Virus record (IMG/VR): IMGVR_UViG_3300009124_000879
Location: 1-25,569 of that record
Length of the DNA: 25,569 bases
Reading direction: 5' to 3' (one strand)
Source: a virus
Shown here: piece by piece, positions 11 to 25,503 of the stretch
Numbering within the stretch: the first letter of the stretch is position 1
Layout of the letters: the number at the start of each line of letters is the position of its first letter
Made by a program: the position numbers and the translations under genes
Notes under the pieces: generated by a model
Databases searched by the model: none
Seen by the model: only the letters and a program-made list of their open reading frames with translations
What the model was told of the DNA's origin: nothing

Positions 11-295
11 GAATATACTGTGAACTTTAAGGAAAACTGGCTATCCCTTACTGTGTTATCTTTATTGTTGATTAATTATTAATTAAGAAGTTTAATAGTT
101 CTAACCCTGTGCTACGCCCTCCCAAACCGAATTAACTCCATATCGCAGCAGTTATACATATGTAGAATAATAGGCTTTTACCCTAGTTACCACCGGCAAG
201 CAAGTCGGCTTAATTAAAAGTCTTATCTAGTAAATTGTTCCTAAGTGCTTGAAATCTACTATGTTTGTTTACTAACTATACCACATAAAAAAATT
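11..295. other. Non-coding left flank, no gene seen
   Basis: No open frame of useful length with a start and ribosome site is visible on either strand. The stretch is AT-rich with scattered small inverted repeats, such as TTAATTA-T-TAATTAA in 71-90 and CTTTTA/TAAAAG enclosing CCG/CGG at about 175-220. The bottom strand around 90-125 reads a little like the 5' half of a tRNA but lacks an anticodon arm and T arm. It may be the 3' flank of an early-gene module or lie near a genome end. Confidence 0.5.
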
Positions 296-315
296 ATACA
301 AGTATTTACTTGTAT
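296..315. promoter_or_regulatory. 20-bp palindrome, operator-like
   Basis: ATACAAGTA-TT-TACTTGTAT is a perfect inverted repeat (9+2+9). It lies immediately upstream of and overlapping the -35 side of the promoter at 308-336. Its half-site ACAAGT recurs in the opposite arrangement (ACTTGT-N4-ACAAGT) at the promoter near 18308. A dimeric repressor or activator site is the natural reading, but no regulator gene is in the window. Confidence 0.55.
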
Positions 316-336
316 TAAATTCAGATAGTGTATAAT
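308..336 (+). promoter_or_regulatory. Promoter P1 (ACTTGT, 17 bp, TATAAT)
   Basis: ACTTGT at 308-313 and a perfect TATAAT at 331-336 are 17 bp apart. The -10 sits in GTGTATAATTAAT, nearly identical to GTGTTATAATTAAT at the second strong promoter (18325-18338). Transcription would start near 343 and meet a terminator at 403-441, so its own product appears to be a short RNA unless there is read-through. Confidence 0.6.
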
Positions 337-342
337 TAATTT

Positions 343-441
343 TAGAAATTGAACATCTTATCCATTCTTGGATACATATTGTTCCCCTTTCTATTGTGTT
401 GAGATAAAAGCCGGACAGCAATGGCCGGCTTTATCTTTTAT
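343..441 (+). ncRNA. Candidate small RNA between promoter P1 and a terminator
   Basis: A roughly 100-nt transcript is bounded by a consensus-like promoter and an intrinsic terminator and has no open frame. Its 5' part folds as TATCCA (359-364), loop TTCT, TGGATA (369-374). Its 3' end is the terminator hairpin at 403-435. I do not recognise the family. It could also be just the terminated leader of the small genes beginning at 456. Confidence 0.4.
403..441 (+). terminator. Intrinsic terminator
   Basis: GATAAAAGCCGG (403-414) pairs with CCGGCTTTATC (425-435) with one bulged A and a ten-base loop. It is followed by a T-rich tract, CTTTTAT. It separates promoter P1 from the small genes that follow. 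Confidence 0.65.
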
Positions 442-455
442 GTTATAGTTGGGAT

Positions 456-566
456 ATGACAATTTATGTTAAAGATTGCGATGAATGTTTACAACCAATG
501 TGGGAGGATTTAATCAATGAAGATGGTCTATGCGAAAATTGTCAAGAAAATATCAATAGCCAATAA
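456..566 (+). CDS. 36-residue zinc-finger-like protein
   Basis: This short frame starts ATG at 456 and stops at 564. It encodes an acidic 36-residue peptide with two Cys pairs, CDEC at residues 8-11 and CENC near residues 28-31. That spacing suits a small zinc-binding knuckle. The ribosome site is weak (GTTGGG just upstream). It overlaps the next small gene by 50 bp in another frame, and that gene's ribosome site lies inside this one. Function unknown. The regular Cys spacing is the main reason to think it is translated. Confidence 0.45.
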   Translation: MTIYVKDCDECLQPMWEDLINEDGLCENCQENINSQ

Positions 567-720
567 CTTACTGTTCTACTTCTATAATTATATTTTTAAG
601 AACGACAAGGTAGCTAAAGGTAGAAGAAAGTTTTATTGTGCTGGGTGCGGGCAAAGTCACATCTATCCTCTTACTAGCAAGGATTACTTTATGTGTAATT
701 CGTGTTGGAAAACTCTATAA
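517..720 (+). CDS. 67-residue zinc-ribbon protein
   Basis: A basic 67-residue protein whose C-terminal third forms a zinc ribbon: CAGC at residues 41-44 and CNSC at 60-63. The start at 517 is supported by GGGAGGA (502-508), eight bases upstream. An in-frame ATG at 523 is the alternative. The N-terminal half is hydrophobic and aromatic where it overlaps the preceding frame, so that part may be shaped by the overlap. It is followed by an A7T8 tract and the palindrome at 736. The role is unknown; small zinc ribbons in phages often bind nucleic acid or host polymerase. Confidence 0.55.
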   Translation: MKMVYAKIVKKISIANNLLFYFYNYIFKNDKVAKGRRKFYCAGCGQSHIYPLTSKDYFMCNSCWKTL

Positions 721-735
721 AAAAATTTTTTTTAC

Positions 736-764
736 GCCTCGTTAAAACGAGGCTACCCTATAAT
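736..764 (+). promoter_or_regulatory. Candidate promoter P2: perfect palindrome plus TATAAT
   Basis: GCCTCGTT-AA-AACGAGGC (736-753) is a perfect 18-bp palindrome. It is followed by TATAAT at 759-764. No -35 consensus is present and the palindrome occupies that place, as at the promoter near 18308. This would fit an activator-dependent promoter. The predicted start, G771, is the base just before the first hairpin of the RNA below. Confidence 0.45.
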
Positions 765-770
765 AAATCT

Positions 771-996
771 GCCTAGAAAAAGTTTCTAGGTACTGTATGA
801 GGATACAGTTGAAATAAAGAAAATAGCGTTTCTCTTTACAGATATGACAGCTCTGTTGTTGAGTTTAGTGAGATTGATTATTTCTTTTTTCTTTCACAGA
901 GAAGGTGTGAGGACTTTTAACTAAAGACACAACTGCCTTCTCGCAACAAAGTTGGACACTTTGTAAGGTCACTAAACCTCCTTCGGGAGGTTTTGT
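771..996 (+). ncRNA. Candidate structured non-coding RNA, about 225 nt
   Basis: Almost the whole stretch can pair locally. CCTAGAAA/TTTCTAGG is at 772-779/783-790 and ACTGTAT/ATACAGT at 792-798/803-809. An AAAG-rich hairpin spans 816-837 with one mismatch, and ACAGA/TCTGT lies at 838-842/852-856. A long-range helix GTTTAGTGA/TCACTAAAC (863-871/969-977) encloses a long hairpin at 899-942 and ACAAAGT/ACTTTGT at 946-952/958-964. The RNA ends in a UUCG-capped terminator. No open frame with a ribosome site is present. I do not recognise the family. It stands at the head of the late operon, so an antitermination or attenuation leader is as plausible as a free RNA. Confidence 0.55.
974..996 (+). terminator. 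UUCG-loop intrinsic terminator
   Basis: AAACCTCC (974-981), tetraloop TTCG (982-985), GGAGGTTT (986-993), then T and GTGC. This is the classical very stable tetraloop terminator, though the U tract is short. It lies only 27 bp before the first late gene, so the late operon must start downstream of it or read through it. Its 5' arm overlaps the long-range helix 863-871/969-977. Confidence 0.75.
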
Positions 997-1022
997 GCTA
1001 TTATGAATTAAAAGGAGGATGT

Positions 1023-1103
1023 ATGCCTAAAGGAATTGGATATCCAACCGGTATGAAAAAAGCTACTAAGAAAAAAGCAGCTAAAAAGAAAAAGAAAAAA
1101 TAA
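1023..1103 (+). CDS. 26-residue lysine-rich peptide
   Basis: ATG at 1023 follows AAGGAGGA (1012-1019) by three bases. The peptide opens MPKGIGYPTGM and continues as an almost pure Lys/Ala tail ending in six lysines. Its stop overlaps the next start as TAATG (1101-1105). Small MPKGIGY-type basic peptides ahead of the terminase are something I recall from environmental phage genomes, but I cannot name a family. A DNA-binding or packaging accessory role is only a guess from the charge. Confidence 0.6.
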   Translation: MPKGIGYPTGMKKATKKKAAKKKKKK

Positions 1104-1360
1104 TGCCGGAATATCAAGGAAAAAGTGTCACATTAAATAAACCTTCACGAATAGGTAAAGGTGAACCAGGAGATGGTCGTAAAAAATTTAAAGTGTATGT
1201 TAAAGATGGTGACAAGGTTAAGAAGGTTATGTTCGGTGACCCAAATATGGAAATTCGTAAAGATAACCCGGAAGCAAGAAAATCGTTTCGTGCTAGACAT
1301 AAATGCGATACAGCTAAAGACAAGACTACGCCTAGATACTGGTCTTGTAAGATGTGGTAA
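1103..1360 (+). CDS. Conserved small basic phage protein (RYWSCKMW motif)
   Basis: An 85-residue, strongly basic protein with a FKVYVKDG strand near residues 29-36, then FGDPNMEIR, FRARHKCD and a C-terminal RYWSCKMW. This succession of motifs is familiar from small conserved proteins in many environmental tailed phages and is unlikely to be chance. Its biochemical role is unknown to me. The start overlaps the previous stop (TAATG), and the protein sits in the gene cluster just before the terminase. Two cysteines (in HKCD and WSCK) could bind metal. Confidence 0.75.
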   Translation: MPEYQGKSVTLNKPSRIGKGEPGDGRKKFKVYVKDGDKVKKVMFGDPNMEIRKDNPEARKSFRARHKCDTAKDKTTPRYWSCKMW

Positions 1361-1362
1361 TT

Positions 1363-1524
1363 ATGGGAGGTAGAAACGCTAAAGCACCTTGGGATAAACC
1401 TAATCCAAAAAATAAATCTAGTAAGCTAACTTCTTCACAAAAGAGTAAAGCTAAAGCTAGAGCTAAAAAAGCTGGAAGGCCTTATCCTAACTGGGTTGAT
1501 AACACTTGGGCATCAAGACAGTAA
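1363..1524 (+). CDS. 53-residue basic protein, KARAKKAGRPYPN motif
   Basis: ATG at 1363, two bases after the previous stop; coding ends with TAA at 1522. The 53-residue product is rich in Lys, Ala and Ser. It has a KARAKKAGRPYPNWVDN stretch at about residues 31-47 and ends in WASRQ. I recall the same signature in short proteins next to the terminase of other environmental phages, which supports a real gene. Function unknown. Its basic character and position suggest association with DNA packaging. Confidence 0.65.
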   Translation: MGGRNAKAPWDKPNPKNKSSKLTSSQKSKAKARAKKAGRPYPNWVDNTWASRQ

Positions 1525-1525
1525 A

Positions 1526-1630
1526 TTGGATATTAACTGCCCCCGTTGTGGGCTACCAATGAATATAACCAGGGATGAAGGGCTTAAAGTAGTTTGTTTA
1601 AACAAGCAGTGTGGGAATTATAGAAAATGA
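1526..1630 (+). CDS. 34-residue zinc-ribbon peptide, probable TTG start
   Basis: A frame opening with TTG at 1526 encodes CPRC at residues 5-8 and C-x4-C near residues 24-29, a compact zinc ribbon. The only in-frame ATG (1559) would remove the first Cys pair, so TTG is preferred despite a poor ribosome site. The stop overlaps the terminase start as ATGA (1627-1630), a typical coupling junction. Part of the coding sequence is the palindrome TTGTTTAAACAA (1594-1605). Function unknown. Confidence 0.5.
   Translation: MDINCPRCGLPMNITRDEGLKVVCLNKQCGNYRK
1594..1605. repeat. Palindrome TTGTTTAAACAA, copy 1
   Basis: A perfect 12-bp palindrome 21 bp before the terminase start. Identical 12-mers occur at 13844, 18310, 18623 and 24121. 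Confidence 0.6.
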
Positions 1631-3543
1631 GTAAAGTAAAAGTTTGTTTCGCACAGGGATGTCATACAGTATTAAAACCCCCTAAAAGAAAATTTTGTAG
1701 TGATAAATGTTCCAGGAGTTATTTTAATAAAAAATTCTATGCAGAAAAACAAGGTGCAGTCTATGAACCGGAACACGATGGTAAACCAGTAGCTACACCG
1801 GATACACAAAAGCGTAGAGGTGAAGTCTATGAAAAACTAATAGAAAAAGATTTAGGACCATTAATTCTTAAAAAAGAAATAACAAAACAAGATGCTGCTG
1901 AAATACTACAGTGTTCTAAAGCAGCAGTTAGTTATGCATATGCGGCCTGGGTAGAAGATATGGAAACCAAAGAGAAGGCCGAGAACTGGACACTACCAGC
2001 TAAAGCAGAAAAATCATTAGCTGATTTTAAAATATTTAGAGATAGATACTTTGAAACTGAACAAGGCATACCTTATGAAACTCCGGAGTTCCACATTAGA
2101 TGGATACAGTCTATCTTAGAAGCAATAGAACACGGCAACCAGCAGATGATATTATCTCCACCACGACACGGAAAAACAGATTTGTTAATACATTTTGCAG
2201 TATGGTTAATAATTAAAAATCCTAATGTTCGTATCTTATGGGTAGGTGGTAACGAAGAAATTGCTAAAAACGCAGTAAGTTCAGTTATTGACCAGTTAGA
2301 GAATAACGAAAAACTTATAGAGGATTTATGCCCACCAGGAAAAAGTTTTAAACCTAACAGCCGTGCAGGTAAAGCCTGGTCACAAAACGGATTTACAGTT
2401 GGAACGAGAACAGTAACCGGTATAAAATCACCTACTATGGTAGGTATTGGTAGAGGTGGTAAAATCTTATCTCGTGACTGTGACATCATTATTGCTGATG
2501 ACTTAGAGGACCATTCATCTACTATGCAACCTTCATCAAGAGAGAACACTAGAACCTGGTGGACTACAACATTGTCATCTCGTAAAGAGGAACATACAGC
2601 TTTAGTAGTAATTGGTTCTAGGCAACATTATGATGACTTGTATTCTCACTTGTTAGATAACGAGAGTTGGAAAACAATAGTAGAAGAAGCACACGATACT
2701 GGATGCACACTCCCCGACTGGGATGATGAACACCACCAGGAATGTATGTTATGGCCTGGTAAAAGAACTTTTAAATGGTTAATGGACCGAAAGAAGGGTG
2801 CAGAAACTACAGGTGGTAGAGCAATATACGAAATGGTATATCTTAATGTAGCAATGCCGGATGGTATGGCTTTATTTGATAGCGTAGAGATAGATGCGTG
2901 TAGGGACCAAAACAGAACTATTGGACACATACCACACAATGTAAGATTAATTGCAGGACTTGACCCCGCATCAACTGGATACCAGGCTGCATTCTTATGG
3001 GGATATGACCAATCAACAAATAAACTTTTTATGATAGATATGGAAAACTCTTTAGGTGGAGGTATTCCACAAGCACTAAATATTATTAAACAGTGGTATC
3101 AAAAATATAGTTTGTCACATTGGGTAATTGAAGAGAACGGATTTCAGCGTGCAATTAGACAAGACCAATCTATAAAAGATTTTGCAGGTAGGCACGGAAT
3201 ATTCTTAGAAGGAACACAAACCTACTCTAATAAACACGACCCAATTTATGGTGTTACTGCAATGCGACCATTGTTTGAACAGCAATTAATTTCTCTACCA
3301 TATAATGGATTTGAAGCACAAGAGAAGGTAAACTTATATAAAAGTCAGTTGGTGTATTTCTCTTCTGCACAGAATAAAAGCAGAAGTGTAGGAACTAAAA
3401 CTGATATAGTTATGGCTAGTTGGTTCCCTATGAAAACTATTCGTAGAATGCAGAAGGAAAGACTTGCTACAATGGGACTAGAATACGAACCTAGTTTTGG
3501 AGGATATGAGCTAAGTACAATGGACTTAGATAATTGGAGATAA
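1627..3543 (+). CDS. terL: Terminase large subunit with zinc-finger/HTH N-terminal extension
   Basis: The 638-residue ATP-driven packaging motor and nuclease. Walker A is PPRHGKTD at residues 178-185. The hydrophobic Walker B strand is DIIIADDLED at 286-295. The RNase H-like nuclease half shows candidate acidic residues D446 (in AGLDPAS), E502/E503 (in VIEENG) and D593 (in TDIVMASW). Before the motor lies an unusual extension. It has C7, C12, C24 and C28, spaced as a zinc finger, and then a helix-turn-helix-like stretch at about 84-108 (KQDAAEILQCSKAAVSYAY). No separate small terminase is seen, so the extension may recognise DNA. The start is fixed by the ATGA overlap. The protein acts at the portal vertex during packaging. 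Confidence 0.93.
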   Translation: MSKVKVCFAQGCHTVLKPPKRKFCSDKCSRSYFNKKFYAEKQGAVYEPEHDGKPVATPDTQKRRGEVYEKLIEKDLGPLILKKEITKQDAAEILQCSKAAVSYAYAAWVEDMETKEKAENWTLPAKAEKSLADFKIFRDRYFETEQGIPYETPEFHIRWIQSILEAIEHGNQQMILSPPRHGKTDLLIHFAVWLIIKNPNVRILWVGGNEEIAKNAVSSVIDQLENNEKLIEDLCPPGKSFKPNSRAGKAWSQNGFTVGTRTVTGIKSPTMVGIGRGGKILSRDCDIIIADDLEDHSSTMQPSSRENTRTWWTTTLSSRKEEHTALVVIGSRQHYDDLYSHLLDNESWKTIVEEAHDTGCTLPDWDDEHHQECMLWPGKRTFKWLMDRKKGAETTGGRAIYEMVYLNVAMPDGMALFDSVEIDACRDQNRTIGHIPHNVRLIAGLDPASTGYQAAFLWGYDQSTNKLFMIDMENSLGGGIPQALNIIKQWYQKYSLSHWVIEENGFQRAIRQDQSIKDFAGRHGIFLEGTQTYSNKHDPIYGVTAMRPLFEQQLISLPYNGFEAQEKVNLYKSQLVYFSSAQNKSRSVGTKTDIVMASWFPMKTIRRMQKERLATMGLEYEPSFGGYELSTMDLDNWR

Positions 3544-5288
3544 TGAAAAACGCAGAACAAGTATATAACAGGGTATATGAACTAAGACAGCAACACGCAG
3601 ATTTTGCAGCTGATAAAGACAACATCAGAGATATTATGAATGGTGGTGCTGATGGCTTAAAAGCATTGTTAGGTAAATCAATGCGTGATATGGATTATCA
3701 ACAAATACCAGCACCTAACTTATTGCAATCCGGATTAGATAGACTTGCACAAAAACTTGGTAGAGCACCGGACTTAAAAGTAGATGTTTACAATGACAAA
3801 GATAGCGAGAGAGCATCTAAACGTGCAGAAAAACTAGAACGAATAGTTCACGCTTATGATGAAATACAAAACTTAGATTTACAATTACCACAAGTAGGTA
3901 GATGGTTACCTGGTTATGGTTTTGCAGTATGGGTATTAAAAGAGAAAAAGGATGCTAATGGTATTCCTTATCCATACGCAGAAATAAAAGACCCATATCT
4001 TTGTTACCCTGGATACTTTGGTGATGGACAACAACCTAATGAATTAGCAATAGTTCAAAGAGTTCCACATAAATCACTTGCAGAAATGTATCCTAACCAC
4101 GCCAATATGATTTTAGATGATGTGCCTAATGAAAATCAAACATTAGCGTATATGTCATCATACGATAAAGGATGGGCCAACCAAAGTGGTTCCGGTATGG
4201 TAGTTGCAGAATACTACGATAAAGATGGAACATACATCTTACTACCGGAAAAAATGGAGATAATAGATTTTATACCTAATCCTTTAAAGTCGGGACCAAG
4301 ATTTGTCGTAGCCAAAAGGTTTGCATTTGACCAAATGCAAGGTCAGTTCCATCACACGATAGGACTGATGGCCAATATGGCTAAGATAAATGTTCTATCT
4401 GTCATTGCAATGGAGGATGCTGTGTTTACAGAAACCAACATCATCGGTGAGATAGAAAGTGGGCAGTATAAGAAAGGAAGATTAGCAGTTAATTACTTAA
4501 CTCCTGGTTCGCAAGTAAGCAAGCCTACGAATAATCTACCCTATCAGCTGTTCCAACAGATAGATAGACTAGAACGACATTTACGATTAGGTGCTGCATA
4601 TCCAGTTAGTGATGATGGTCAATCACCAAATGCATTTGTTACTGGTAGAGGACTAGAAGAACTAGGACAATCAGCATCGTTGCATATCAGAGAATATCAA
4701 ACAATACTAAAGAATGCTTTAGAACAAATTGATATTAAGAGATTAGAGTGGGATGAAGCAATGTATCCTAATATGAGAAAACCTATTGCTGGTTATCGTA
4801 AAGGAACTGCATTCAAAGAAACATATACACCAGCTAATGATATTGCAGAGATGTATAAGACTAGAAGAATTTATGGTGTTATGGCCGGATTTGATGAACC
4901 ACAAAAAATTATTACTGGTTTGCAGTTAAAGCAACAAGGCATTATTGATACTCAAACATTACAAGAGAATATGGATGGCTTAGATAACATTACACAGATA
5001 CAACAAAGAATTAATAGCGAGAGAGCAGAAAATGTTTTGTTTGAAAGTCTTATGGCCCAAGCAGCACAAGGTAATCCTAAAGCTACTATGGCTGCAATAG
5101 AAATAAAGAAAAACCCTCAAAACATAAATAAAATTTTAGAGAAGTTCTATACTGCAGAAGGTGATGAAATGTCACCGGAAGAGGAAGCTCTTGCAGCTGG
5201 ACCGCAACAACAACCGCAAGGACCTCCTCCAGGATTACAACAAGTGTTAGCACAAGTTGCTGCACAAGGAGGTGGACCAGGTGCCTAA
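3543..5288 (+). CDS. Portal protein
   Basis: A 581-residue protein immediately after the terminase, the usual place of the portal. The portal is the dodecameric ring through which DNA enters and to which the motor docks. A long mixed alpha/beta body has GLDRLAQKLGRAPDLKVDV near residues 65-83 and a WLPGYGFAVWVLKEK strand pair near 121-135. A helical C-terminal half follows, and the tail is Gln/Pro/Gly-rich (QQQPQGPPPG). The ATG at 3543 overlaps the terminase stop (TAATG). A TTG at 3534 would add three residues and is less likely. The identity rests on position, length and general sequence character rather than a diagnostic motif. Confidence 0.82.
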   Translation: MKNAEQVYNRVYELRQQHADFAADKDNIRDIMNGGADGLKALLGKSMRDMDYQQIPAPNLLQSGLDRLAQKLGRAPDLKVDVYNDKDSERASKRAEKLERIVHAYDEIQNLDLQLPQVGRWLPGYGFAVWVLKEKKDANGIPYPYAEIKDPYLCYPGYFGDGQQPNELAIVQRVPHKSLAEMYPNHANMILDDVPNENQTLAYMSSYDKGWANQSGSGMVVAEYYDKDGTYILLPEKMEIIDFIPNPLKSGPRFVVAKRFAFDQMQGQFHHTIGLMANMAKINVLSVIAMEDAVFTETNIIGEIESGQYKKGRLAVNYLTPGSQVSKPTNNLPYQLFQQIDRLERHLRLGAAYPVSDDGQSPNAFVTGRGLEELGQSASLHIREYQTILKNALEQIDIKRLEWDEAMYPNMRKPIAGYRKGTAFKETYTPANDIAEMYKTRRIYGVMAGFDEPQKIITGLQLKQQGIIDTQTLQENMDGLDNITQIQQRINSERAENVLFESLMAQAAQGNPKATMAAIEIKKNPQNINKILEKFYTAEGDEMSPEEEALAAGPQQQPQGPPPGLQQVLAQVAAQGGGPGA

Positions 5289-5559: not shown

Positions 5560-5995
5560 AACAGCAGGCAAGAAAATGGCTGACCAAGCTACAGATTTAA
5601 AAGCAGACCCAGGATATGCAGACTTGTATGTTCCAAGGAAGAGTGGCGACCCAACAGGACAAAGTAAATTAATTAACGAAGGACTAGCACCAGGACTTAG
5701 TGCAGAAACTACTGGACCCGAAGCAGACCAAGTAAACACACAGATAAGACAACCAGCATCACCTATATCAATAGGTGCACCTACTAAGTTTCAAAATGTT
5801 CCTATAACTAATAACCTAAGAACAGCAGGTGCGAACATTCCAGGAAAACCAACTTTAGATGTAGAAGCATATTGGGCAGGATTAATGGAAGATTTTCGTG
5901 ACCCAATAATTGCTGAATATTTAACTAACGATACTTTTGTAGCACCAAGAGTAGAAAAAGTGAGCCCAATACAAGCTGATACAGAAACAACCTAA
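5549..5995 (+). CDS. Hypothetical structural-region protein
   Basis: About 148 residues from ATG 5549 (MVRKTAGKKMADQ). Two in-frame ATGs lie at 5534 and 5540; GAGG at 5536-5539 suits 5549 best. The sequence is low in hydrophobics with repeated Pro/Gly/Ala spacers (GDPTGQ, PASPISIGAPT), suggesting an extended or disordered protein. A more ordered stretch near its end holds EAYWAGLMEDFRDPIIAEYL. Its stop overlaps the start of the giant protein (TAATG). No function is recognisable. It may be a chaperone or linker for the neighbouring virion protein. Confidence 0.68.
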   Translation: MVRKTAGKKMADQATDLKADPGYADLYVPRKSGDPTGQSKLINEGLAPGLSAETTGPEADQVNTQIRQPASPISIGAPTKFQNVPITNNLRTAGANIPGKPTLDVEAYWAGLMEDFRDPIIAEYLTNDTFVAPRVEKVSPIQADTETT

Positions 5996-8900
5996 TGCGT
6001 GGTTCATCGTTTTTTTCTGCTTCACACATAAGCGAGGCTATAGCTAGAGAAACTTTAAACAGAGTTAATTCTTACAAGCAAGGTCAAAAAATAGCTAAAA
6101 CTCCTAAAGGCCAGGAGATGATTAGAAACTTTACTGAAATGGGTAAAACTTATCCAAATGTTCCATTTAAGATGACTGCATATCAAGCAATGAGCGGTAC
6201 ACAAGATGATGATGCAGTAGCGTTTGCAACTGCTATGAGAACTGCAGAGATATTATCAGAACAGTACAACATAGAACCGATTACAAAAGTAGGCCCATTG
6301 AAAAGAGCATTTCAAGTAGGTATGTTAGGTCTTGACAGTATGTTTCAACCAGTATCAAGAGGTTTTAAATCAGCTGTAGTTGCTGCACAAGCAGAAGGTA
6401 AATCAGTTCCAGGCACAGTTGCACTTGCAACACTAGCTGGAATACCGGAAATATTTGTTGGTGATAAAGGTGAAGGTGGAGGTGCAGTCACACAAGGCGT
6501 TTTAAATGCATTGCTTGGTGATGGTGTTGGTGATAAATACAGACAAGCTAGAGATGCTTATGGACCAACAGAATTAACTAGATACATACAAGAAAAAAGG
6601 AAAGGTAATCCTATAAACCTAGGTGATGGCTTTATGCCTAACTCTGTTGATTTAACTAAAACACAAGAGTATCTCAATGCTATCCGTGCTGGTGAAAGCC
6701 AACAAGTAGCATATAACAAAGCTAAAGCTATTTATGGTAGAGATATTACGAATGCTTTTGATGCAGCAGAAGATAGGTTTAAATACACAACAAAGCGTGG
6801 AGAAAAAATAAATATATCTCCAGGAAGAGTTATTGCATCTACAATGACTAATCCAGGAAGCACAGGATACAGTGTTATATCCGGACTTATTGATGGTGTA
6901 TTTAGAGTAGCCGCTGACCCTATGAACTTAGCACTTATGTATGGTGCTGGAACTAAAACTGCAATGAGAACAATGTTAGATGCTAACAAAGCTGCAACAA
7001 GACTTGGAACTCCTGCTTATAAGAATGCACAGTTTTGGAAAGGTTTCTTACCAGGTAAAACAGGTAAAGAAAACAGAGCATTGTTTTATGGTAAAACAGC
7101 AGATGAAGTATTAACTACTGAATGGGGTATGAAATTTACAAGAGCGTTAGCTGATTTATCCGGAGATGAAGGACTAGCTTTTTTACGAGATATAAAAGAG
7201 TTTGATAGATTACCGGTATCAGTGTTGCAAGTTCTTAATGAAGTAGATGACCCATTGCAGATTAAACAAATACTAGAAACAGTATCTAAAGCAGGAAGAT
7301 TAACAGACCAAAACTATGATGATATGTTTAACATCATAAAAGAATATTTACCGGCTAATAAAAAAATAGAACTAGATAATGTTAGACAACTGACCGAAAG
7401 CAATAAGAACTTAGGGTTAAAAGTATTGCCTTATAAACCTACTGCTTATGGTGAGTTTTTTAATTATATGAACAAAGTAATTACAGGTGCAACTACAGAA
7501 GTAGCACCATTTAGAAAATTACTTGCATTAGGTACGGATAATCCAGTAAGAGGATTACTAGGTGCATCACAACAATTAAAGTTAGGATTACCTAAACATA
7601 TGCAGAGAGCATTAGCACTTAGACCGGAAACAATGGTAATGGTTACAGAACTAGATAACAGTGTTAAGAATATAGACAATATGCTTAAAGCTGCATTTGT
7701 AGACCCAAAGACAAGAGGTGCATATATTCGTGAAGGACTACAAGCTAGTAGCCAAACACAATTAGATGACTTAGTAAATAGAGCCAATATGGATATTGCT
7801 GGAAGTATTATAGATAAAAACCCTAACTTAAAGTTTGATGTAGAAGAGATAGTAAAACAACAAGAAAATTTTTCTGCACAAATGGAAGAGTTAAGAAGTT
7901 TTTTTAGTGGTACAGCTGGTTCTCTTGCTTTTAACGGAACTAAAATTAAAAAACGATATAAAACATTAATAAAGGATATAGAAGAATATTACAAAAGAGC
8001 AGGTATAAAAGATTTTAATAAATCAGATTTAGAACGATACATTTATGAAGCAGTTCCTACTATGCATTTATTGTCACAAGCAACTGGTTCATTTTCTTTA
8101 CTTATGGACCCACAAGATTTACTGCGTGCATCTAAAGCACATCAACAACTTATAGGACCGGAGGAAAGTTTACTTCGTGCCTGGGGTAAAAATGTAGGAC
8201 TTATAAAAGATAAAGACTGGGTAAAACAATTTAAAATTCCTAGAAGAGCATATGAAGGACAAACATCATTAAAACCACAAGGATATGTAGATAAGTTTTT
8301 TAATGATGCACAAAACAATTTTTTAAAACCTTTATGGATGATTAGGTTAGCATTGTTACTTCGTGTAGTTCCGGAAGAGGGATTAAGAAATGCATACGCT
8401 AACAATGTCAATCCATTTACAAAGTTCTTAACTAGATTATCTTTGACCTCAAATAAATATTATGAGTTTTTTAATATTGATAGAGCAGAGAGTGTAGCAA
8501 GAATATGGAACAATGTCGGTGAGTTAGTTATGAGTACACAAATGAAACCGGATGATATAGATTTTATGTTAAGAATGTTAGATGAAACAGATGTAAAAGC
8601 ATTAAATTCTATGGGATATGAACAAGCACAAAAACTTATGAAGCATTACTTGTTGGAAACTAATTACAGTGGAGAAGTAAGCGAGTATATGGTTAATGCA
8701 GCAGTTAATAACTTTGATGTTAGAAATGTAAAGTTTGCAGAACTTACAGAGAAAACATTTAATGCTAAAAAGAAAACTATTAAAGCAGAGGCCAAAGGTG
8801 CAATACAAGGATACGATGGTAATACTTATGGTTCTATGGGAGAAGCAATACTTGAAACTGGTGGTTTTTCAGTAGATTTGTCTAAACAAGGATTTATAGA

Positions 8901-11900
8901 CTTAGGATACAGAGGACCAGCAGAAGGTGATGTATTTGTATCAGCATATAAAAACAAAGAAATGCAGATAGGAAATATTGGTGATATAGAAAAAGAAGCA
9001 GCTAAGTATGGTGTAACAACAGCAGAATATTTAGATACACAAATAGACAATTTATTTTTTGATGATGACACAGTTGCATTGTTAAGTAAAGATAGACACG
9101 CAATGGGAGTTTATACAGACAATGATGGAAACATTATGTTAGATGTAGCTGTAGGACTAAGTGGTGACAATGCAGTCACTAATGCCGCAATGATAGGTAT
9201 GAACGCATTCCAGGAAAGTATCTATGTAGCTAATAGACAATTAGCAATAGATGCAGGATTTGGTAAAGCATTGGGTAATGGAGATAATGCTAACTTAATA
9301 ATCTTGCATTATGTAGAAGAAGGTAAAGGTGCTAAATCAATTAACTACGATAGTGTTATTAATAAACCAGCACTAGAAGCATTATTCAAATCTAACTTTG
9401 ATGCATTGAAGATAACAGTAGATGAAGTAAAAGGTGCCGCACAAGGATTACCAGGTGGTAGTTTAATGAACAATACACCGGAGTATATGTCATCTATGGG
9501 AGAACAAGCAGTTACAGCAGCATTTAAAACAGGCCGTAAAGATTTAATTGAAAATATGTTTATACAAATAGATAAGTATTTAGGTGATGGAAGAATAAAT
9601 CCTAGATACTGGGAAGCATTATGGAATGAAATAGAAGTATTAGCTATTGACCCTGTTGCAGTAAGAGTAGCCAATATGGGAGTAGATGAAACATTTACAT
9701 ACTTTAGAAATCAAGGTAGTGAAATCATAGAAGATTTAGTTGCTAGAAGTTTTAACGCAGAAGATAAAATATATGCACTTAAAAATGCTGCTGGTGATAA
9801 AGCATTAAAAGAATACTTAGAGAGTGTTCAATATAGAATAGCAAGACTTATAGGTGCAGACCATCAGATACTAGACCCAGTAACAGGAATACCATTATCT
9901 GCTGAAGCAGCTAGAAAAGTAGGATTTAAAGATGGATATAAAATATATCCTAAATTTACAAGCGACTTAAATTCAGTTAAGAGTTCACAAATATTAGAAA
10001 TGATTAAAACTGGTGGTGTTCTTAATAGAAAAGACTGGGTTAAATGGAAACAACATAACCAGTTGCTTAAAGGTAATTCATCTAGAACAGGTGGTAAAAG
10101 TATTAAAGGACAAGCTAACCAAGCATTTTACAAAGAGTTAATTGAAGTATTAACACCGGAAGTTGATAAAGCAGGAATGGGACCAACTTCATTACCAGCT
10201 AAATTTGATGGAACACAAAGAATAAGTGAAAGTGGAACTATGGTAGTTGGAGATAATATAGTAGCAGCAGGATATTTTGATGATGCTAATTACAATCCTG
10301 GACTTATGGGAGGATATCAAAAAATTATAGACACTGCATATGATAGTTTATTAGCTAAACCATCTAGCCGTTTAAACAGGGACCCATTGTTTAGGTATGC
10401 ATTTTATGAAAATGCAATAGAAGCTATGGCCTATATGGATGATGCGACTAGAGCAGAGTTCTTAAAAGGTGCTGAAGCCTGGGTAGATGGTAACAAATTA
10501 TGGGACCAACTAATAGAAGCAGCTAAACAACCAGCAGTAGAAAATACAATTACTTCTCTTAAACAAGCAGAAGATATATTAAAAGTTAAAGCAATGGAAG
10601 AGGTAAAGACAATATTGTATTCTACAAACCAAAGACATATGGCCAGTGATTTGTTTAACAAATATATTCCATTCCCGGAAATATGGGCAGAGGTATTTCA
10701 ATCCTGGGGTAAATTAATACAAGAAAATCCACAGAAGTTTAACAAAACAAGAATTGCAATAGACAATGGTGAAACTGCTAAACCTTGGGATAGTGAGAAT
10801 GGTTTCTTAGAAGAGGACCCAAGAACAGGCAAGATGATGTTTAACTATGTAGATGCACTTAACTTATTAACATTTGGTGTCGGTGGTAGGGCATTAAAAG
10901 CAGTAGCTAATAGAGCTGCATTTGGTGAAGATTTAGAAGATGAAGGTGTAAGAATGACAATACCTGGATATGCTAGTGGGCTTAACTTAATTGCACAGAA
11001 TGGTTTCGCACCAGGATTTGGACCATTAGTTACAATTCCAGCCAATATAATTGCTAACGCAATGCCTGTTCCTAAAAACATACAAGACTTTTTCCTAGGT
11101 TCATTTGGTAGAGGTAATCCATTTGACCAATGGCCAGCGTGGTTACAAAAATTTATGACAAGTGAAGATACATTTAGTGCAGAACGACAAGCACAATTTG
11201 GAACAGCAGTTATGGATACTTACACAGGATATGTATTAGCAGGTAAAGTAGACCAAAAAGACCAAGCAAGTATAGATAAATATATGGAAAAAGCATTTGT
11301 ACAAGCTAAACAATTATTTATATTTAGAGGAACTACACAATTTACATTGCCTACTGGAATACAACCAAGGATAGAAGTAGAAGATAAAGATGGTACTTGG
11401 TGGACAACACAAGTATTAAAATCTAAATACGATGAGTTGTTAATTAAGAATGGTTATGATTACATACAAACAGATATAGACTTTGAAGAAAAATTTGGTA
11501 TAAATCCAATTCCATTAACACAATCTAAGAACCAAAGTCTTGGTAAAAAACCAGTTAAAGAACATTCATACTTTTGGTGGAATGTAGATGATAGAAAAAA
11601 AATATTAGAACCAGGTGCATTACCAAATACTGGTGTGTATATACAACCGGATAGAATAGAAGATGATTTATATTATCCAGCATTCTATGAAATAGAAACT
11701 CAAAACTTACAACCACAACAATATGCAGAGTTTATGCAACAGTCACAAGCTATCTTTGAACTAGAAAAAAAGAAGGTAGAAATAAGAAATACTGAACCGG
11801 AAAGAAATTGGGATGATGCATACGCAGAAGCCAAGCAACAAATACAAGAAGAGTATGGTATTGCTAATATTTACAACTTTGTAGGCAGGCAACAAAGAGC

Positions 11901-12276
11901 GAAGATAGAAACTATTATGGCTGAATTAGATGACTGGGATAATTATGAACTTACTAAAAATTCACCGGAGTATCCATTTGTAGTAGAATATGTACAAAGA
12001 AGAAATGAAGTTCTTGATGTATTTCTTAATAATGGAAATTACACATACACTAACAGGTATGGACAAACTGAAAATTTAAGAATTAGAGGTTCTTCAAGAA
12101 CTAGAAAAGTGTTAAGTGGTAACAGTAATGATTACTTAGAAGCACAGGAAATAATGAGATTTATATGGGAGGACATTGTAGCTAAAAGTGAAGGCACAAA
12201 CTTTAGACAATTAGCTAATGAAGTGTTGTTTTACGAAATAAGCCCAGTGAACCCAACAAATATAAAGGATAGATAA
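5995..12276 (+). CDS. Giant (2093-residue) virion protein, probably internal/ejected
   Basis: At 2093 residues this takes about a quarter of the window. It is largely alpha-helical and mixed, with no lysozyme, polymerase or protease motif that I can identify. One stretch is Gly/Ala-rich and hydrophobic: VALATLAGIPEIFVG near 140-155. A second is a proline/glycine-rich, membrane-friendly segment, FAPGFGPLVTIPANIIANAM, near residue 1670. The C-terminal 300 residues are Trp/Tyr-rich and charged. The gene sits between portal and scaffold, where short-tailed and several actinobacterial phages can carry very large head-associated proteins. No tape-measure gene follows the capsid gene. An internal protein ejected with DNA is my inference. 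A tape-measure-like role cannot be excluded. Confidence 0.72.
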   Translation: MRGSSFFSASHISEAIARETLNRVNSYKQGQKIAKTPKGQEMIRNFTEMGKTYPNVPFKMTAYQAMSGTQDDDAVAFATAMRTAEILSEQYNIEPITKVGPLKRAFQVGMLGLDSMFQPVSRGFKSAVVAAQAEGKSVPGTVALATLAGIPEIFVGDKGEGGGAVTQGVLNALLGDGVGDKYRQARDAYGPTELTRYIQEKRKGNPINLGDGFMPNSVDLTKTQEYLNAIRAGESQQVAYNKAKAIYGRDITNAFDAAEDRFKYTTKRGEKINISPGRVIASTMTNPGSTGYSVISGLIDGVFRVAADPMNLALMYGAGTKTAMRTMLDANKAATRLGTPAYKNAQFWKGFLPGKTGKENRALFYGKTADEVLTTEWGMKFTRALADLSGDEGLAFLRDIKEFDRLPVSVLQVLNEVDDPLQIKQILETVSKAGRLTDQNYDDMFNIIKEYLPANKKIELDNVRQLTESNKNLGLKVLPYKPTAYGEFFNYMNKVITGATTEVAPFRKLLALGTDNPVRGLLGASQQLKLGLPKHMQRALALRPETMVMVTELDNSVKNIDNMLKAAFVDPKTRGAYIREGLQASSQTQLDDLVNRANMDIAGSIIDKNPNLKFDVEEIVKQQENFSAQMEELRSFFSGTAGSLAFNGTKIKKRYKTLIKDIEEYYKRAGIKDFNKSDLERYIYEAVPTMHLLSQATGSFSLLMDPQDLLRASKAHQQLIGPEESLLRAWGKNVGLIKDKDWVKQFKIPRRAYEGQTSLKPQGYVDKFFNDAQNNFLKPLWMIRLALLLRVVPEEGLRNAYANNVNPFTKFLTRLSLTSNKYYEFFNIDRAESVARIWNNVGELVMSTQMKPDDIDFMLRMLDETDVKALNSMGYEQAQKLMKHYLLETNYSGEVSEYMVNAAVNNFDVRNVKFAELTEKTFNAKKKTIKAEAKGAIQGYDGNTYGSMGEAILETGGFSVDLSKQGFIDLGYRGPAEGDVFVSAYKNKEMQIGNIGDIEKEAAKYGVTTAEYLDTQIDNLFFDDDTVALLSKDRHAMGVYTDNDGNIMLDVAVGLSGDNAVTNAAMIGMNAFQESIYVANRQLAIDAGFGKALGNGDNANLIILHYVEEGKGAKSINYDSVINKPALEALFKSNFDALKITVDEVKGAAQGLPGGSLMNNTPEYMSSMGEQAVTAAFKTGRKDLIENMFIQIDKYLGDGRINPRYWEALWNEIEVLAIDPVAVRVANMGVDETFTYFRNQGSEIIEDLVARSFNAEDKIYALKNAAGDKALKEYLESVQYRIARLIGADHQILDPVTGIPLSAEAARKVGFKDGYKIYPKFTSDLNSVKSSQILEMIKTGGVLNRKDWVKWKQHNQLLKGNSSRTGGKSIKGQANQAFYKELIEVLTPEVDKAGMGPTSLPAKFDGTQRISESGTMVVGDNIVAAGYFDDANYNPGLMGGYQKIIDTAYDSLLAKPSSRLNRDPLFRYAFYENAIEAMAYMDDATRAEFLKGAEAWVDGNKLWDQLIEAAKQPAVENTITSLKQAEDILKVKAMEEVKTILYSTNQRHMASDLFNKYIPFPEIWAEVFQSWGKLIQENPQKFNKTRIAIDNGETAKPWDSENGFLEEDPRTGKMMFNYVDALNLLTFGVGGRALKAVANRAAFGEDLEDEGVRMTIPGYASGLNLIAQNGFAPGFGPLVTIPANIIANAMPVPKNIQDFFLGSFGRGNPFDQWPAWLQKFMTSEDTFSAERQAQFGTAVMDTYTGYVLAGKVDQKDQASIDKYMEKAFVQAKQLFIFRGTTQFTLPTGIQPRIEVEDKDGTWWTTQVLKSKYDELLIKNGYDYIQTDIDFEEKFGINPIPLTQSKNQSLGKKPVKEHSYFWWNVDDRKKILEPGALPNTGVYIQPDRIEDDLYYPAFYEIETQNLQPQQYAEFMQQSQAIFELEKKKVEIRNTEPERNWDDAYAEAKQQIQEEYGIANIYNFVGRQQRAKIETIMAELDDWDNYELTKNSPEYPFVVEYVQRRNEVLDVFLNNGNYTYTNRYGQTENLRIRGSSRTRKVLSGNSNDYLEAQEIMRFIWEDIVAKSEGTNFRQLANEVLFYEISPVNPTNIKDR

Positions 12277-14083: not shown

Positions 14084-14085
14084 CA

Positions 14086-18305: not shown

Positions 18306-18307
18306 CT

Positions 18308-18334: not shown

Positions 18335-18340
18335 TAATAC

Positions 18341-19998: not shown

Positions 19999-20009
19999 AG
20001 ATAAAATTT

Positions 20010-20049
20010 ACAAGATTTGGGTGGAACTCCACCTCCACCCACTTCTTGT
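20010..20049 (+). promoter_or_regulatory. Strong hairpin after the capsid gene
   Basis: ACAAGA (20010-20015) with TCTTGT (20044-20049), then TGGGTGGA (20018-20025) with TCCACCCA (20034-20041) around an eight-base loop: 14 pairs with a small internal loop. No U tract follows, so it is not a standard terminator. A 3' stabiliser or processing point separating abundant capsid mRNA from the less needed downstream genes is likely. Confidence 0.5.
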
Positions 20050-20081
20050 GTTAAAATATAAAATAAGATTTAGGAGAAAGA

Positions 20082-20435: not shown

Positions 20436-20443
20436 GGTAGAAA

Positions 20444-21385: not shown

Positions 21386-23355
21386 TGCCTAGAGTATCAA
21401 GCACTTCCAATTTAAGAAATCCAAAACGATACGGATACGACATACAAATTGATGATATATATTTAAGAACTGCTACATCCCCGGATAGACAAATGACAAT
21501 ACAATCTTCTGATGTACAAGAACAACAGGTTAATGTAAAACAAAATGCTGAAGATTTTACTTCTAACTTAGGTCGTATATATTCAAGAAATAATTTTACA
21601 GGAGGACAAGGACTTGATACTGCACATAGAGCAGATGCAAAACCTAATGACCCAAATAGATTTTGGGATAGTAAAGGAGTAGATGTTTTTCACGGAGATG
21701 ATGAAGTAGCTTATAATATTCATTTATTATTTACAACAGAAACAAAAAGTATTAATTTTTCAAATACAAATAACTATTTAGCAAGAACAACCAATGGTGA
21801 TTTGTATGTGACAGATAGTACTACAATATATCAATCTACAAATGATGGAGTATCTTGGTCATCAGTTTCACCAGGTTTTACTATAAACTATAATATTACA
21901 GGTATTGCATCAGTAGGTGACCACATTTATGCAACAACAGCAAATAGTGTATCTAATTCAGAGTTAATAAAATATGATGGTACTACCTGGACCAAAGAGA
22001 ATACACACTGGGATAGCAATGGAGGACTTACTGGTGTGTGGTTTCAAAAAGGACAGTTATTTATATCTACAGATGATGGTGTAATAGAGAGAGTTTACGC
22101 TGTAAGCCCATTTAATAAAACTTGGTCATCATCTGATTTAGCAGTTGATGATGAAATAATTAAATTTGAAGATAGTCACCACGTTTCACAAGTAATTGAT
22201 GCCGGTGCTGTAGTGTTAGTAGCAAGTACAAATGGTGATATATATTCTTGTAAAGAAGTAGAAGGTACATTCGGACTTAAAGGGCAAACAAATATTCCGT
22301 ATGAAGAAATACATTCTATTGCAGCTGCAGAAGGTCAAGTATTTTTTGGTACTAAAGAATTTAGTCGTGATGTAGGTAGGATGTATCGTGCTCAACTATC
22401 AGTAGCAGATGATTTGTATGTCTTAACTGGTAGGCAATTAATAAAAGAATGGGTTATTGATGGTATAGACACAACACCAAAACATATGTTCGTATCAAGA
22501 GATAGTGTATATTGTGGTATCCAGGAAGATACTAATGAAAGTTATTTATGGAGATATTACTTACCAACTGCAGGTCTAGCTAGAGATTTAGAATTGGGTG
22601 AAGGTGGATTTGTTACTGGTATATCTAACGCAGGTGGTAAATTTTTAGCAGTAGTAGCCGGTGCTGATATATATAGAGAAACCTCTACACATATGAGTGA
22701 AGGTTATTTAGTGTTATCTGCTGCAGATTTTTTTACTGCAGAAAATAAACAATTTGTTGGTGCAGAAATATCTACTACTAACTTAGCAACTAACACAAGC
22801 GTTGAGTTGCAATATTCTACAAAGTTTGAAGATTTAGATACTCCTACTGCTGCTACATACACAAGTGCCTTTGAACAAATATCCGGTACAGGTGATATTG
22901 AAAAACAAATAGCAGAAGTATCAAGATATATTATTGGTAAAGTAGTTTTAAAATCAAGTGATGGTATCAATACACCTAAAGTTAAATCAGTACAGTTTCG
23001 TGCATTAGCTAGACCGGAACTTGTAGTTGCACAAATACCTATAAATATAAGCGATAGAGTTGAAAGGCCCGGCAGAAAACCTATAACTGTAAAAGGATTA
23101 GGAGATGAATTATATTCTGCACTTCGTTCTAAAGAAGGTGACAGTGTTACATTAGAAATATTTCAACCACGAGAAATTATTCGTGGTGTGGTAGAACAAA
23201 TAAGCTATCCAGTTATATCTAACAATAACTTAGGTAGCGATACTACTTATGCTATCATTACAGTGCGTGGAACTAGACAGCCTACATTGACAGATGTAAC
23301 TTCTGTACACGTTCCAGGTATTGCAGCATTTGGTATAATGAGATACGGAGGATAA
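21385..23355 (+). CDS. Tail protein with beta-propeller repeats
   Basis: 656 residues. An N-terminal segment (about 1-110) precedes a propeller-like repeat region at about 115-430. That region holds an Asp-box, STNDGVSW (151-158), and repeated G-D-L-Y/G-D-I-Y strand motifs (NGDLYVT, VGDHIYAT, NGDIYSC, GADIYRE). A C-terminal beta domain follows, with SDRVERPGRKPITVKGL near residues 570-590. BNR/Asp-box propellers occur in tailspikes, sialidases and receptor-binding proteins. No catalytic set is evident, so binding rather than cleavage is the safer reading. TAATG junctions on both sides. Probably the main tail or receptor-contact protein. Confidence 0.7.
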   Translation: MPRVSSTSNLRNPKRYGYDIQIDDIYLRTATSPDRQMTIQSSDVQEQQVNVKQNAEDFTSNLGRIYSRNNFTGGQGLDTAHRADAKPNDPNRFWDSKGVDVFHGDDEVAYNIHLLFTTETKSINFSNTNNYLARTTNGDLYVTDSTTIYQSTNDGVSWSSVSPGFTINYNITGIASVGDHIYATTANSVSNSELIKYDGTTWTKENTHWDSNGGLTGVWFQKGQLFISTDDGVIERVYAVSPFNKTWSSSDLAVDDEIIKFEDSHHVSQVIDAGAVVLVASTNGDIYSCKEVEGTFGLKGQTNIPYEEIHSIAAAEGQVFFGTKEFSRDVGRMYRAQLSVADDLYVLTGRQLIKEWVIDGIDTTPKHMFVSRDSVYCGIQEDTNESYLWRYYLPTAGLARDLELGEGGFVTGISNAGGKFLAVVAGADIYRETSTHMSEGYLVLSAADFFTAENKQFVGAEISTTNLATNTSVELQYSTKFEDLDTPTAATYTSAFEQISGTGDIEKQIAEVSRYIIGKVVLKSSDGINTPKVKSVQFRALARPELVVAQIPINISDRVERPGRKPITVKGLGDELYSALRSKEGDSVTLEIFQPREIIRGVVEQISYPVISNNNLGSDTTYAIITVRGTRQPTLTDVTSVHVPGIAAFGIMRYGG

Positions 23356-24128
23356 TGGCTACAAGTCAAATAGTAAACTTTTATGAAAGCACCTTAGCAT
23401 CAATACTAACAGGTGCTACTCCTGCTAGTACAACAGTAGTTACAGCACCAACAACAGATGGTACTACTGTAATTAATGCATCAGTTAGTAGCCCTATATA
23501 TTTAGTTATGGACCCGGATAACTCTGCTAACAGAGAAGTTGTATCTGTAACTGCATCTTCGGGTACTTCTTTTACTGCTATAACAAGAGATTTAGAAGGT
23601 AGGCACGCAAGTTTACCAACACACCAAGTAGGTACAATAGTAAGACTTGCTGTATTAGCCGAACATATTAGTGATGCACAAACTTTATCAACAAATGCAC
23701 AAACAACTGCAAACGCAGCACTTCCTAAATCCGGTGGAACTATGACTGGTACTGTAGATTTTGATGGTAACGAACTTACACAACCTAAACTTGCAGGTTT
23801 TGAAGAGAAGGTTTCGGACCTTGGTGCTTTAACTACTGGTACTACAGATTGTGATTTAGAGGCACACAATGTATTTGAAGCAGACATACAAGGAACAGTA
23901 ACATTAAACTTAACAAATGTTGATAGTTCATTATTAGAAAATGCAACATTTATTCTGAAAAATACTACAGGAACAGCAGCATTATCCTGGGAAATAGATG
24001 GCGTATCTAAAACACCTAAGCACGCTAATGGTAATGTTTATGCACAAACTGCATCGGGAATAGATATAGTAGGTGTATTAACATATGAAGGTGATTTATA
24101 TATAAACGCATTACAGGCCTTTGTTTAA
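23355..24128 (+). CDS. Tail fibre protein
   Basis: 257 residues. The N-terminal beta module (NREVVSVTASSGTSFTAITR then a GRHASLPTHQVGT turn) resembles that in the protein at 20444. Next is a short helical neck (LSTNAQTTANAALPKSGGTM) whose ALPKSGGTMTG element is a hallmark of phage tail fibres. The C-terminal beta domain contains NATFILKNTTGTAALSW and IDIVGVLTYEGDLYI, typical of fibre tips. The stop codon sits inside the palindrome TTGTTTAAACAA (24121-24132), which also supplies the A of the next ATG. Confidence 0.82.
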   Translation: MATSQIVNFYESTLASILTGATPASTTVVTAPTTDGTTVINASVSSPIYLVMDPDNSANREVVSVTASSGTSFTAITRDLEGRHASLPTHQVGTIVRLAVLAEHISDAQTLSTNAQTTANAALPKSGGTMTGTVDFDGNELTQPKLAGFEEKVSDLGALTTGTTDCDLEAHNVFEADIQGTVTLNLTNVDSSLLENATFILKNTTGTAALSWEIDGVSKTPKHANGNVYAQTASGIDIVGVLTYEGDLYINALQAFV

Positions 24129-24132
24129 ACAA
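24121..24132. repeat. Palindrome TTGTTTAAACAA at a gene junction
   Basis: This copy contains the TAA stop of the fibre gene and the first base of the next ATG, so it is not explained by the same codons (Leu-Phe-Lys-Gln) that create the copies at 13844 and 18623. Confidence 0.6.
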
Positions 24133-24380
24133 TGAGTATGTTACTAATGCTAAAAGAAGGTGGAAGTTTAGGTATTGATACTATTGGTAACTTACCAATA
24201 GATGAAGATATAGATTTATTACCTGATGCTAGTGGATTTGATGCAACATTATTATTTACAACATATAGAATTTTTACAGGAACTAATGCTTTACAACAAC
24301 CTAGTAACAGTGTTCATTGGGTAGAAGCAGTTGGTTTTGCAAATTCCGAAGAACAAGTTATCCTATTAACTGGGCTATAA
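24132..24380 (+). CDS. Small tail-region protein, paralogue A
   Basis: 82 residues. The N-terminus is hydrophobic then acidic, and the last 45 residues carry ATLLFTTYRIFTGTNALQQP, a central HWVEAVGF and a C-terminal QVILLTGL. The last section matches the next gene's product position by position. Likely a duplicated small tail-associated protein. Start ATG 24132; GTTTAAAC lies just before it instead of a good ribosome site, so coupling with the previous gene is probable. Confidence 0.6.
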   Translation: MSMLLMLKEGGSLGIDTIGNLPIDEDIDLLPDASGFDATLLFTTYRIFTGTNALQQPSNSVHWVEAVGFANSEEQVILLTGL

Positions 24381-24381
24381 A

Positions 24382-24570
24382 ATGCCTTTAGGTGCAACAA
24401 GATTTGCGTTTAGTGGGAGTGATGAACCATATGATGAAAACCTCGCTTTCCTTGTAACAAGATTTTTTGGTGCTAATATAGGTATAGCTACAGATAATCC
24501 GGACAATAGATGTCACTGGGTTATAGTACAAGAGTTTGAGCAACAACAATTATTGCTCACACAATTATAG
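24382..24570 (+). CDS. Small tail-region protein, paralogue B
   Basis: 62 residues, starting one base after the previous stop. Its C-terminal 42 residues (LAFLVTRFFGANIGIATDNP, then HWVIVQEF, ending LLLTQL) share with paralogue A the order L-x-F-x-T-x-F-x-G-x-N, P-x-N, HWV, F, Q, LLT-x-L. No strong ribosome site. Tandem duplication followed by divergence is the simplest explanation. Unknown role in the fibre/adhesin cluster. Confidence 0.6.
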   Translation: MPLGATRFAFSGSDEPYDENLAFLVTRFFGANIGIATDNPDNRCHWVIVQEFEQQQLLLTQL

Positions 24571-24581
24571 GAGATAATTAA

Positions 24582-24911
24582 ATGGCGAATGAGTATAAAA
24601 TACTTGCACAAAGTAACCCTGCTGCTACTACTAATACAGATATTTTAACTGTTGGTGCAGATACGCAGGTAATAGTTTCAACAATAACAGTTGCAAACTT
24701 AGAGGGTTCAGCAAATACTTATCGTATTGCAGTTAGAGATGGTGGTGCATCCATAGACAATTCACATTACATTGCTTATGACACTACTATTCCTGCAAAC
24801 GATACAGTTGCTTTAACTTTGGGTATTACTTTAGGTGCAACAGATGTAATAACTATATATGCTTCAGACACAAACTTAGCTTTTAATGTATATGGCGTAG
24901 AGATTACATAG
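24582..24911 (+). CDS. Conserved beta-sandwich tail-associated protein
   Basis: 109 residues preceded by AGGAGA with suitable spacing. MANEYKILAQSNPAATTNTD..., then VSTITVANLEGSANTYRIAV, HYIAYDTTIPANDTVALTLG and GATDVITIYASDTNLAFNVYG follow a pattern I recognise from a widespread small protein family next to tail-fibre genes of environmental phages. It looks like a single immunoglobulin-like beta-sandwich. Probably a fibre chaperone or small virion ornament. Function not established. Confidence 0.72.
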   Translation: MANEYKILAQSNPAATTNTDILTVGADTQVIVSTITVANLEGSANTYRIAVRDGGASIDNSHYIAYDTTIPANDTVALTLGITLGATDVITIYASDTNLAFNVYGVEIT

Positions 24912-24919
24912 GAGTATAA

Positions 24920-25503
24920 ATGGGAGTTTACAGAGCAACTGCACAAGCAGTTGGTTTGGGTAGAAAATCTAAAAAAAGTTTAGGTTTTGTTACGCAAACA
25001 CATACATATACATCTAGTTCTTCATTTTCTAAACCACTTGGCTCTAACTATTTTGAAATGTTAGTAGTAGGTGGTGGAGGAGGACCAGGAAATCATCAAG
25101 GTGGTGGCGGTGGTGGTGCCGGTTATGTAGATGGTTTTGGATTTCTTAGTGTACAACCTGGTAATAACATTACTGTAACTATTGGTAATGGTGGTAACAA
25201 CGCAAACAACTCCGGCCAAAGAGGTGGTCAATCTAGTATTGGTAACATTGCTGCAGGTGGCGGTGGTGGTGGCGGTGCTTGTTGTGGTTGGGGTGGACAA
25301 GTAGGTAACAACTCTAGTACAGGTTCCGGTTCTACTAAAGTAACTGTAACTTCCGGTGGAGAAAAAGGAACAGGTAATGGTCGTTCCGGTGGTGCCCATA
25401 ACAATGCACAACACGTTAATCGTGGAGAAATAGGTGGATATTTTAACAGAACTTCTACTGACTATGGTTCTACTTACTATCATTCCGGTGGTGGTGGTGG
25501 AGG
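24920..25503 (+). CDS. Glycine-rich tail adhesin, 3' truncated
   Basis: ATG 24920 with GGAG five bases before. The N-terminus has a short basic stretch (GLGRKSKKSLGF). A beta strand, YFEMLVVGGGGGPG, then leads into repeated poly-glycine clusters alternating with SVQPGNNITVTIGNGG and NVNRGEIGGYF-like segments. This is the pattern of glycine-rich fibre-tip domains, whose polyglycine loops in adhesins such as T4-type gp38 contact the receptor. At least 194 residues are present. The frame continues without a stop through the adapter, so the true C-terminus is missing. Codons use GGT heavily, making low-complexity DNA. Confidence 0.75.

Follow-up and report, generated by a model that had tools for sequence, protein, structure and literature searches.

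The tailed phage whose DNA lies in the window (the whole analysed stretch of 25,569 nucleotides) has been purged of about 15 short DNA words, and we consider the best explanation, with a probability of roughly 0.87, to be clade-by-clade counter-selection by restriction-modification systems of successive host populations, mainly of Type II. The genome may thus be read as a record of the defences that its hosts have carried, with a different set of words purged in each of its close relatives.

The phage DNA itself comprises 25,493 bases (positions 11-25503) and is flanked on both sides by adapter remains. Positions 1..10, read directly from the sequence as TAAGAGACAG, are presumably the end of a transposase adapter; positions 25504..25569, which begin with CTGTCTCTTATACACATCTGACGC, we take to be adapter read-through, and they carry the only two GATC of the record (25535 and 25550). 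A second assembly of the same phage (IMGVR_UViG_3300026138_000017, 30,315 bases; G029, also L124) overlaps the window at both ends, over 14,701 bases with 3 mismatches and over 1,139 bases with 2, and the two together therefore form a closed circle of 39,968 bp. The gene for a 67-aa zinc-ribbon protein (517..720, plus strand) is also the last gene of G029, which closes the circle as well. The window covers the greater part of the genome of this tailed phage, a marine bacterial virus of ~40 kb.

On the plus strand, the window encodes an 85-aa protein of phrog_7595, a family of unknown function (1103..1360), the large terminase subunit (phrog_38; 1627..3543), which served as the marker for fetching relatives, a conserved protein directly after the terminase that by its position is a candidate portal protein and matches no family (3546..5288), a 2093-aa protein, again with no family match (5995..12276), and an SU10-type major capsid protein (PF17236; 18988..19998). 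The recognisable products are structural proteins, an SLT transglycosylase, a Rad52-like annealing protein, an exonuclease and a SprT-like protein, some of them assigned via related contigs or by direct reading, and an N-acetylmuramoyl amidase assigned by reading. The remainder of the same phage carries a gene for a tryptophan halogenase (PF04820, 1e-26; 13317-14519 of L164, minus strand).

The original prediction had stated that GATC, GANTC and CATG are absent from positions 11-25503 and that TCGA apparently is too. Indeed, a program count gave 0 for all four words, against a codon-preserving shuffle expectation of 75, 42, 41 and 30 sites, respectively; in a second set of shuffles (n = 60) the minima were 56, 28, 30 and 19. 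Because the shuffles kept the proteins and codon counts fixed and left non-coding bases unshuffled, these expectations are conservative. The codon choices described in that prediction were confirmed as well: serine after Asp or Glu is encoded by AGT/AGC in 39 of 39 cases and never by TCN (elsewhere 287 TCN vs 146 AGY), Asp preceding a C-starting codon is always GAC (62 GAC, 0 GAT), and His preceding a G-starting codon is always CAC (23 CAC, 0 CAT). Moreover, none of the 182 ATG codons is preceded by a codon ending in C.

The same stretch (11..25503) is also purged of ten words that had been overlooked (GACG/CGTC, TGSCA, CCAGA/TCTGG, GGAGC/GCTCC, GAGAC/GTCTC, ACSGT, CTYRAG, CAATTG, AAGCTT and GCGC) and of most ACGT. 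Eight 4-mers are absent from the window, and shuffles leave at most one absent. A greedy search for exact and symmetric words, in which each found word was masked before the next was sought and bipartite Type I words were covered up to 2+N+2, gave a minimal list of 15 words for the window and G029: GATC, GACG/CGTC, CATG, GANTC, CCAGA/TCTGG, TGSCA, ACGTA and TCGA, followed by GGAGC/GCTCC, CTYRAG, ACSGT, GAGAC/GTCTC, CAATTG, AAGCTT and GCGC. The five residual ACGT start at 3821 (3821..3824), 21063, 22181, 23309 and 25413, and every one of them reads CACGTT/AACGTG; the contigs of the rest of the window's clade have none.

These absences extend to the 39,968-bp genome, where the observed and expected numbers were 0/98 for GATC, 0/88 for GACG, 0/74 for CATG, 0/57 for GANTC, 0/53 for CCAGA, 1/47 for TGSCA and 2/45 for TCGA; the words are under-represented with a ratio below 0.1 versus a composition-preserving null, which we regard as elimination. 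It could be argued that codon or mutational bias made these words rare without any selection on sites, as the phage is A+T-rich and some CpG words are rare anyway. This is extremely improbable: shuffles that preserve both proteins and codon use expect 12-98 sites of the purged words per genome, sister clades of the same composition hold normal site numbers, and the similar words CTAG, TGCA and CCGG are not depleted in the window; in the joined genome these three and CCWGG occur at or above expectation.

The way in which the sites were lost was followed in alignments with nine relatives. As these relatives are not independent, the figures count comparisons, not events. Of 303 aligned CATG sites, 165 are covered by amino acids that are unchanged in the window, and at none of these 165 did the window keep CATG, all having been changed silently. 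The same was found at conserved amino acids for TGSCA (0/119 kept), GGAGC (0/43), GAGAC (0/97) and TCGA (0/73), whereas 27-86% of the sites of ten control words were kept. The purged sites were thus removed by synonymous change.

The terminase retrieved 80 virus contigs at 71-100% identity and the capsid 40 contigs. A tree of 39 related contigs was built from the terminase, the protein after the terminase and the capsid; genes of the relatives were called as mechanical ORFs. On this tree the states are mostly bimodal, that is, all or none, and the sets of avoided words vary between clades. Throughout the close family GATC is missing or almost missing, and it counts as purged in all 39 contigs; GANTC is purged in 30 of the 39 (3 changes), GAGAC in 13 (4 changes), GTSAC in 9 (5 changes) and CCGG in 10 of the 26 scorable contigs (5 changes). 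Purging of CATG and TGSCA is restricted to the six-contig clade of the window, with one change each; GGTGA and ACTGG are each purged in one clade alone and GTWAC in one contig. Intermediate states, e.g., 4 of 54 expected TCGA in G032, form a minority and fit the drift-back of abandoned words. One clade (G025 and G019, i.e., L065 and L058) lacks the trinucleotide CCG/CGG entirely, with 0 of 240 expected occurrences in 67.7 kb.

The adapter remains on both contig ends might point to an artefact of the library or the assembly, such as one caused by digesting the sample. We consider this practically negligible: the two assemblies differ by 3 mismatches in 14,701 bases, the same absences occur in the independent assemblies of the phage (L001 and L124/G029) and in relatives, independent metagenomes give the same zeros, and a single metagenome gives differing ones. 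Within metagenome 3300031974, GANTC occurs 0 times in L032 and 29 times in L050; with differing barcodes in one metagenome, the absences are not a library effect.

Because removal by synonymous change is complete, the states are clade-specific and all-or-none, and many of the words are known Type II specificities, several sequence-specific DNA-targeting systems fit these data best. This agrees with the idea of several host systems put forward in the original prediction; the methylation-dependent systems that it also invoked are not needed. We infer that the selection comes from restriction-modification systems of the host, or from similar systems that target DNA, mostly of Type II, and that the host carries or meets many of them. 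Some 15 systems per host would be unusual, and the words may instead reflect a population-wide pool. Each system would kill genomes bearing its unmethylated recognition word, and mutants with fewer sites would survive more often. As a synonymous change would suffice to destroy nearly every site, the word would reach zero genome-wide within a short branch; with changing host repertoires, new words would be purged and abandoned ones would drift back. The expected outcome would be a barcode of missing words that is almost binary and specific to each clade. Among the purged words, we take GATC, GANTC, CATG, TCGA, GCGC, ACGT, CTYRAG, GTSAC, GGTGA, GGATG and GTCTC to be known Type II sites, and we know of no specificity for GACG, ACGG, CCAGA, CCAGC, TGSCA, GGAGC and CATCG; few known systems have four-base asymmetric sites.

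Alternatively, the sites could be missing because the phage spares itself from a site-specific nuclease of its own. The minus-strand arm does hold small uncharacterised genes, one with a possible PD-(D/E)XK motif (EIKSER), but 15 words are not explicable by one or two nucleases, and the EIKSER gene is also present in relatives with other barcodes (G009 and G002), making this very unlikely. Among the recognised genes there is no DNA polymerase, integrase or methyltransferase; the gene products scanned, in which no integrase was recognised, include many that match no family. Two methyltransferase families, PF01555 and PF02086, had no match in the phage contigs searched, which makes phage-encoded protection unlikely. 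Avoidance of the words may therefore be the main protection of the phage.

One further word is not absent but polarised. From the first GGAC at position 413 to the end of the phage DNA (413..25503, plus strand), the window has 92 GGAC and no GTCC, which is one arm of a genome-wide pattern: on the linear map, 108 GGAC come first and 27 GTCC after them, so that the orientation switches once (between 31,084 and 32,407), the second block being the minus-strand gene arm. Shuffles gave a mean of 52.5 switches and a minimum of 37, and no other asymmetric 4-mer is similar (next ratio 0.26). Codon pairs were considered as an explanation and rejected, as GTCC is depleted in all three reading frames. Other clades polarise other words: GAGC/GCTC has 3 switches in G011 and 5 in G012 (60.6 and 50.6 in shuffles), and G038 shows polarity of GGCT/AGCC. 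To our knowledge, no enzyme is described for the polarised GGAC/GTCC word. We lean slightly towards the view that such two-block words are the imprint of an orientation-acting defence, either a two-site system (Type III or Type ISP-like) or a strand-specific one at the transcript level, that turns over between clades.

For the first of these, a Type III-like system would cut only between inversely oriented sites, and in each arm the phage would have removed just the less frequent orientation, not all sites. The single switch, unmatched by any other 4-mer, the low numbers for GAGC in G011 and G012 and the depletion of GTCC in all frames argue for it. The polarised word differs from clade to clade, as the other purged words do, and it is the minority orientation that was purged in all three cases. 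Furthermore, T7 escapes EcoP15 because all of its 36 sites point the same way (PMC3874151). Nevertheless, the single switch on the linear map becomes two on the circle; within each arm the word occurs in one orientation only, and the arms are oppositely directed, so inversely oriented pairs remain in the genome, with one inverted interface per class that a strict two-site enzyme could cut. In addition, the polarity nearly follows transcription, and in a broad survey, avoidance was not systematically strand-asymmetric (PMC6286503). We therefore regard this reading as tentative; it concerns the polarity only and is compatible with restriction as the cause of the absent words.

The second possibility, a host ribonuclease or other RNA-level defence acting on GUCC (GCUC and AGCC in other clades), would account for the purged orientation being the sense strand in both arms. 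It is challenged by two sense-strand exceptions in a well-supported gene of G029, at most 120 bases from the end of this last plus-strand gene, which place the border of the polarity inside a gene. Homologous places in G032 carry the same two exceptions, which count therefore as one observation, and another plus-strand gene position in G032 shows a further exception; the remaining sense-strand matches in G029 sit in ORFs that we judged spurious. Since an RNA rule also would not require the rarer orientation to be purged in all three clades, we consider transcript avoidance rather unlikely.

When 84,980 genomes were scanned with a terminase profile, three binned contigs matched at 52-64% identity; they belong to Gammaproteobacteria, Actinomycetota and Rhodobacteraceae, and as these are three different groups, no host was called. 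The RS345 bin holds two phage contigs of the wider family (G043:C30 and C36), in which matches repeat at a distance of ~43.8 kb, which would fit a circular phage of this size assembled past its end. One of these distant contigs encodes a CcrM-like methyltransferase and has abundant GANTC, while GATC is still lacking; its methyltransferase gene (L203, 1441-2199) adjoins an annealing-protein-like gene. However, 41 further genomes of the order of RS345 are without such a phage, and in the MED855 order a full-length match was found in 1 of 57 genomes, the RS345 bin only. The small-genome actinobacterial order tested as a proxy has mostly one or two PF01555 methyltransferases per genome; were that order the host, this would not suggest a rich repertoire and would speak against restriction as the cause. 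A similar PF01555 methyltransferase of ~280 aa occurs in nearly every genome of this order (most of 42), and the one gene inspected (L202, 1330-2166) has no recognisable restriction gene beside it.

If the absent words record host restriction, the phage sequence alone would tell which specificities its hosts carried, and the phage tree would date their arrival and loss. Specificities awaiting discovery would then include GACG, CCAGA, TGSCA, GGAGC and all CCG, and the barcodes would offer a new signal for pairing uncultured phages with hosts by methylome.

With the phages known to have SU10-type capsids, the window phage shares the PF17236 major capsid protein and the phrog_38 terminase, but the nearest cultured capsids, those of Mycobacterium and Propionibacterium phages, have 31-32% identity to that of the window, and no phage record exceeds 60% identity for terminase or capsid. 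The same pipeline found 10 purged words in Pelagibacter phage HTVC011P (L227), 11 in Puniceispirillum phage HMO-2011 (L229), 5 in T7 (GATC 6/124, CCWGG 2/52) and 2 in an H. pylori phage. HTVC011P and HMO-2011, neither of which is among the terminase matches listed, have zero GATC like the window phage, and their words are partly different. The mean was 1.9 words per 12-15 kb in 33 other marine virus contigs, from the groups of these two phages, vs 5.5 in 38 contigs of the family cut at 15 kb. These controls rule out that multi-word purging is peculiar to the family: it is common in marine phages, though weaker in the others, and the window family shows a known phenomenon in strong form.

Lytic phages likewise eliminate Type II words genome-wide when they have no protection (Rusinov et al. 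2018, PMC6286503); the window phage differs in purging ~15 words at once, many of them asymmetric, and in the near-binary switching between sister clades. In that survey, most cases of elimination concerned orthodox Type II sites and non-temperate phages, Type I and IIG sites were reported to show no avoidance and that of Type III sites was very rare, so the asymmetric purged words deserve attention. If the absent words do record host restriction, our data suggest, contrary to the published near-exclusivity of orthodox Type II systems, that asymmetric and orientation-dependent systems can leave strong marks. The newer part of our findings is the GGAC/GTCC polarity, a form of avoidance that this survey did not find. 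Its closest counterpart is T7 facing EcoP15 (PMC3874151), where an asymmetric word is also tolerated in one orientation only; in the window phage, the word is a different one and forms two oppositely oriented blocks.
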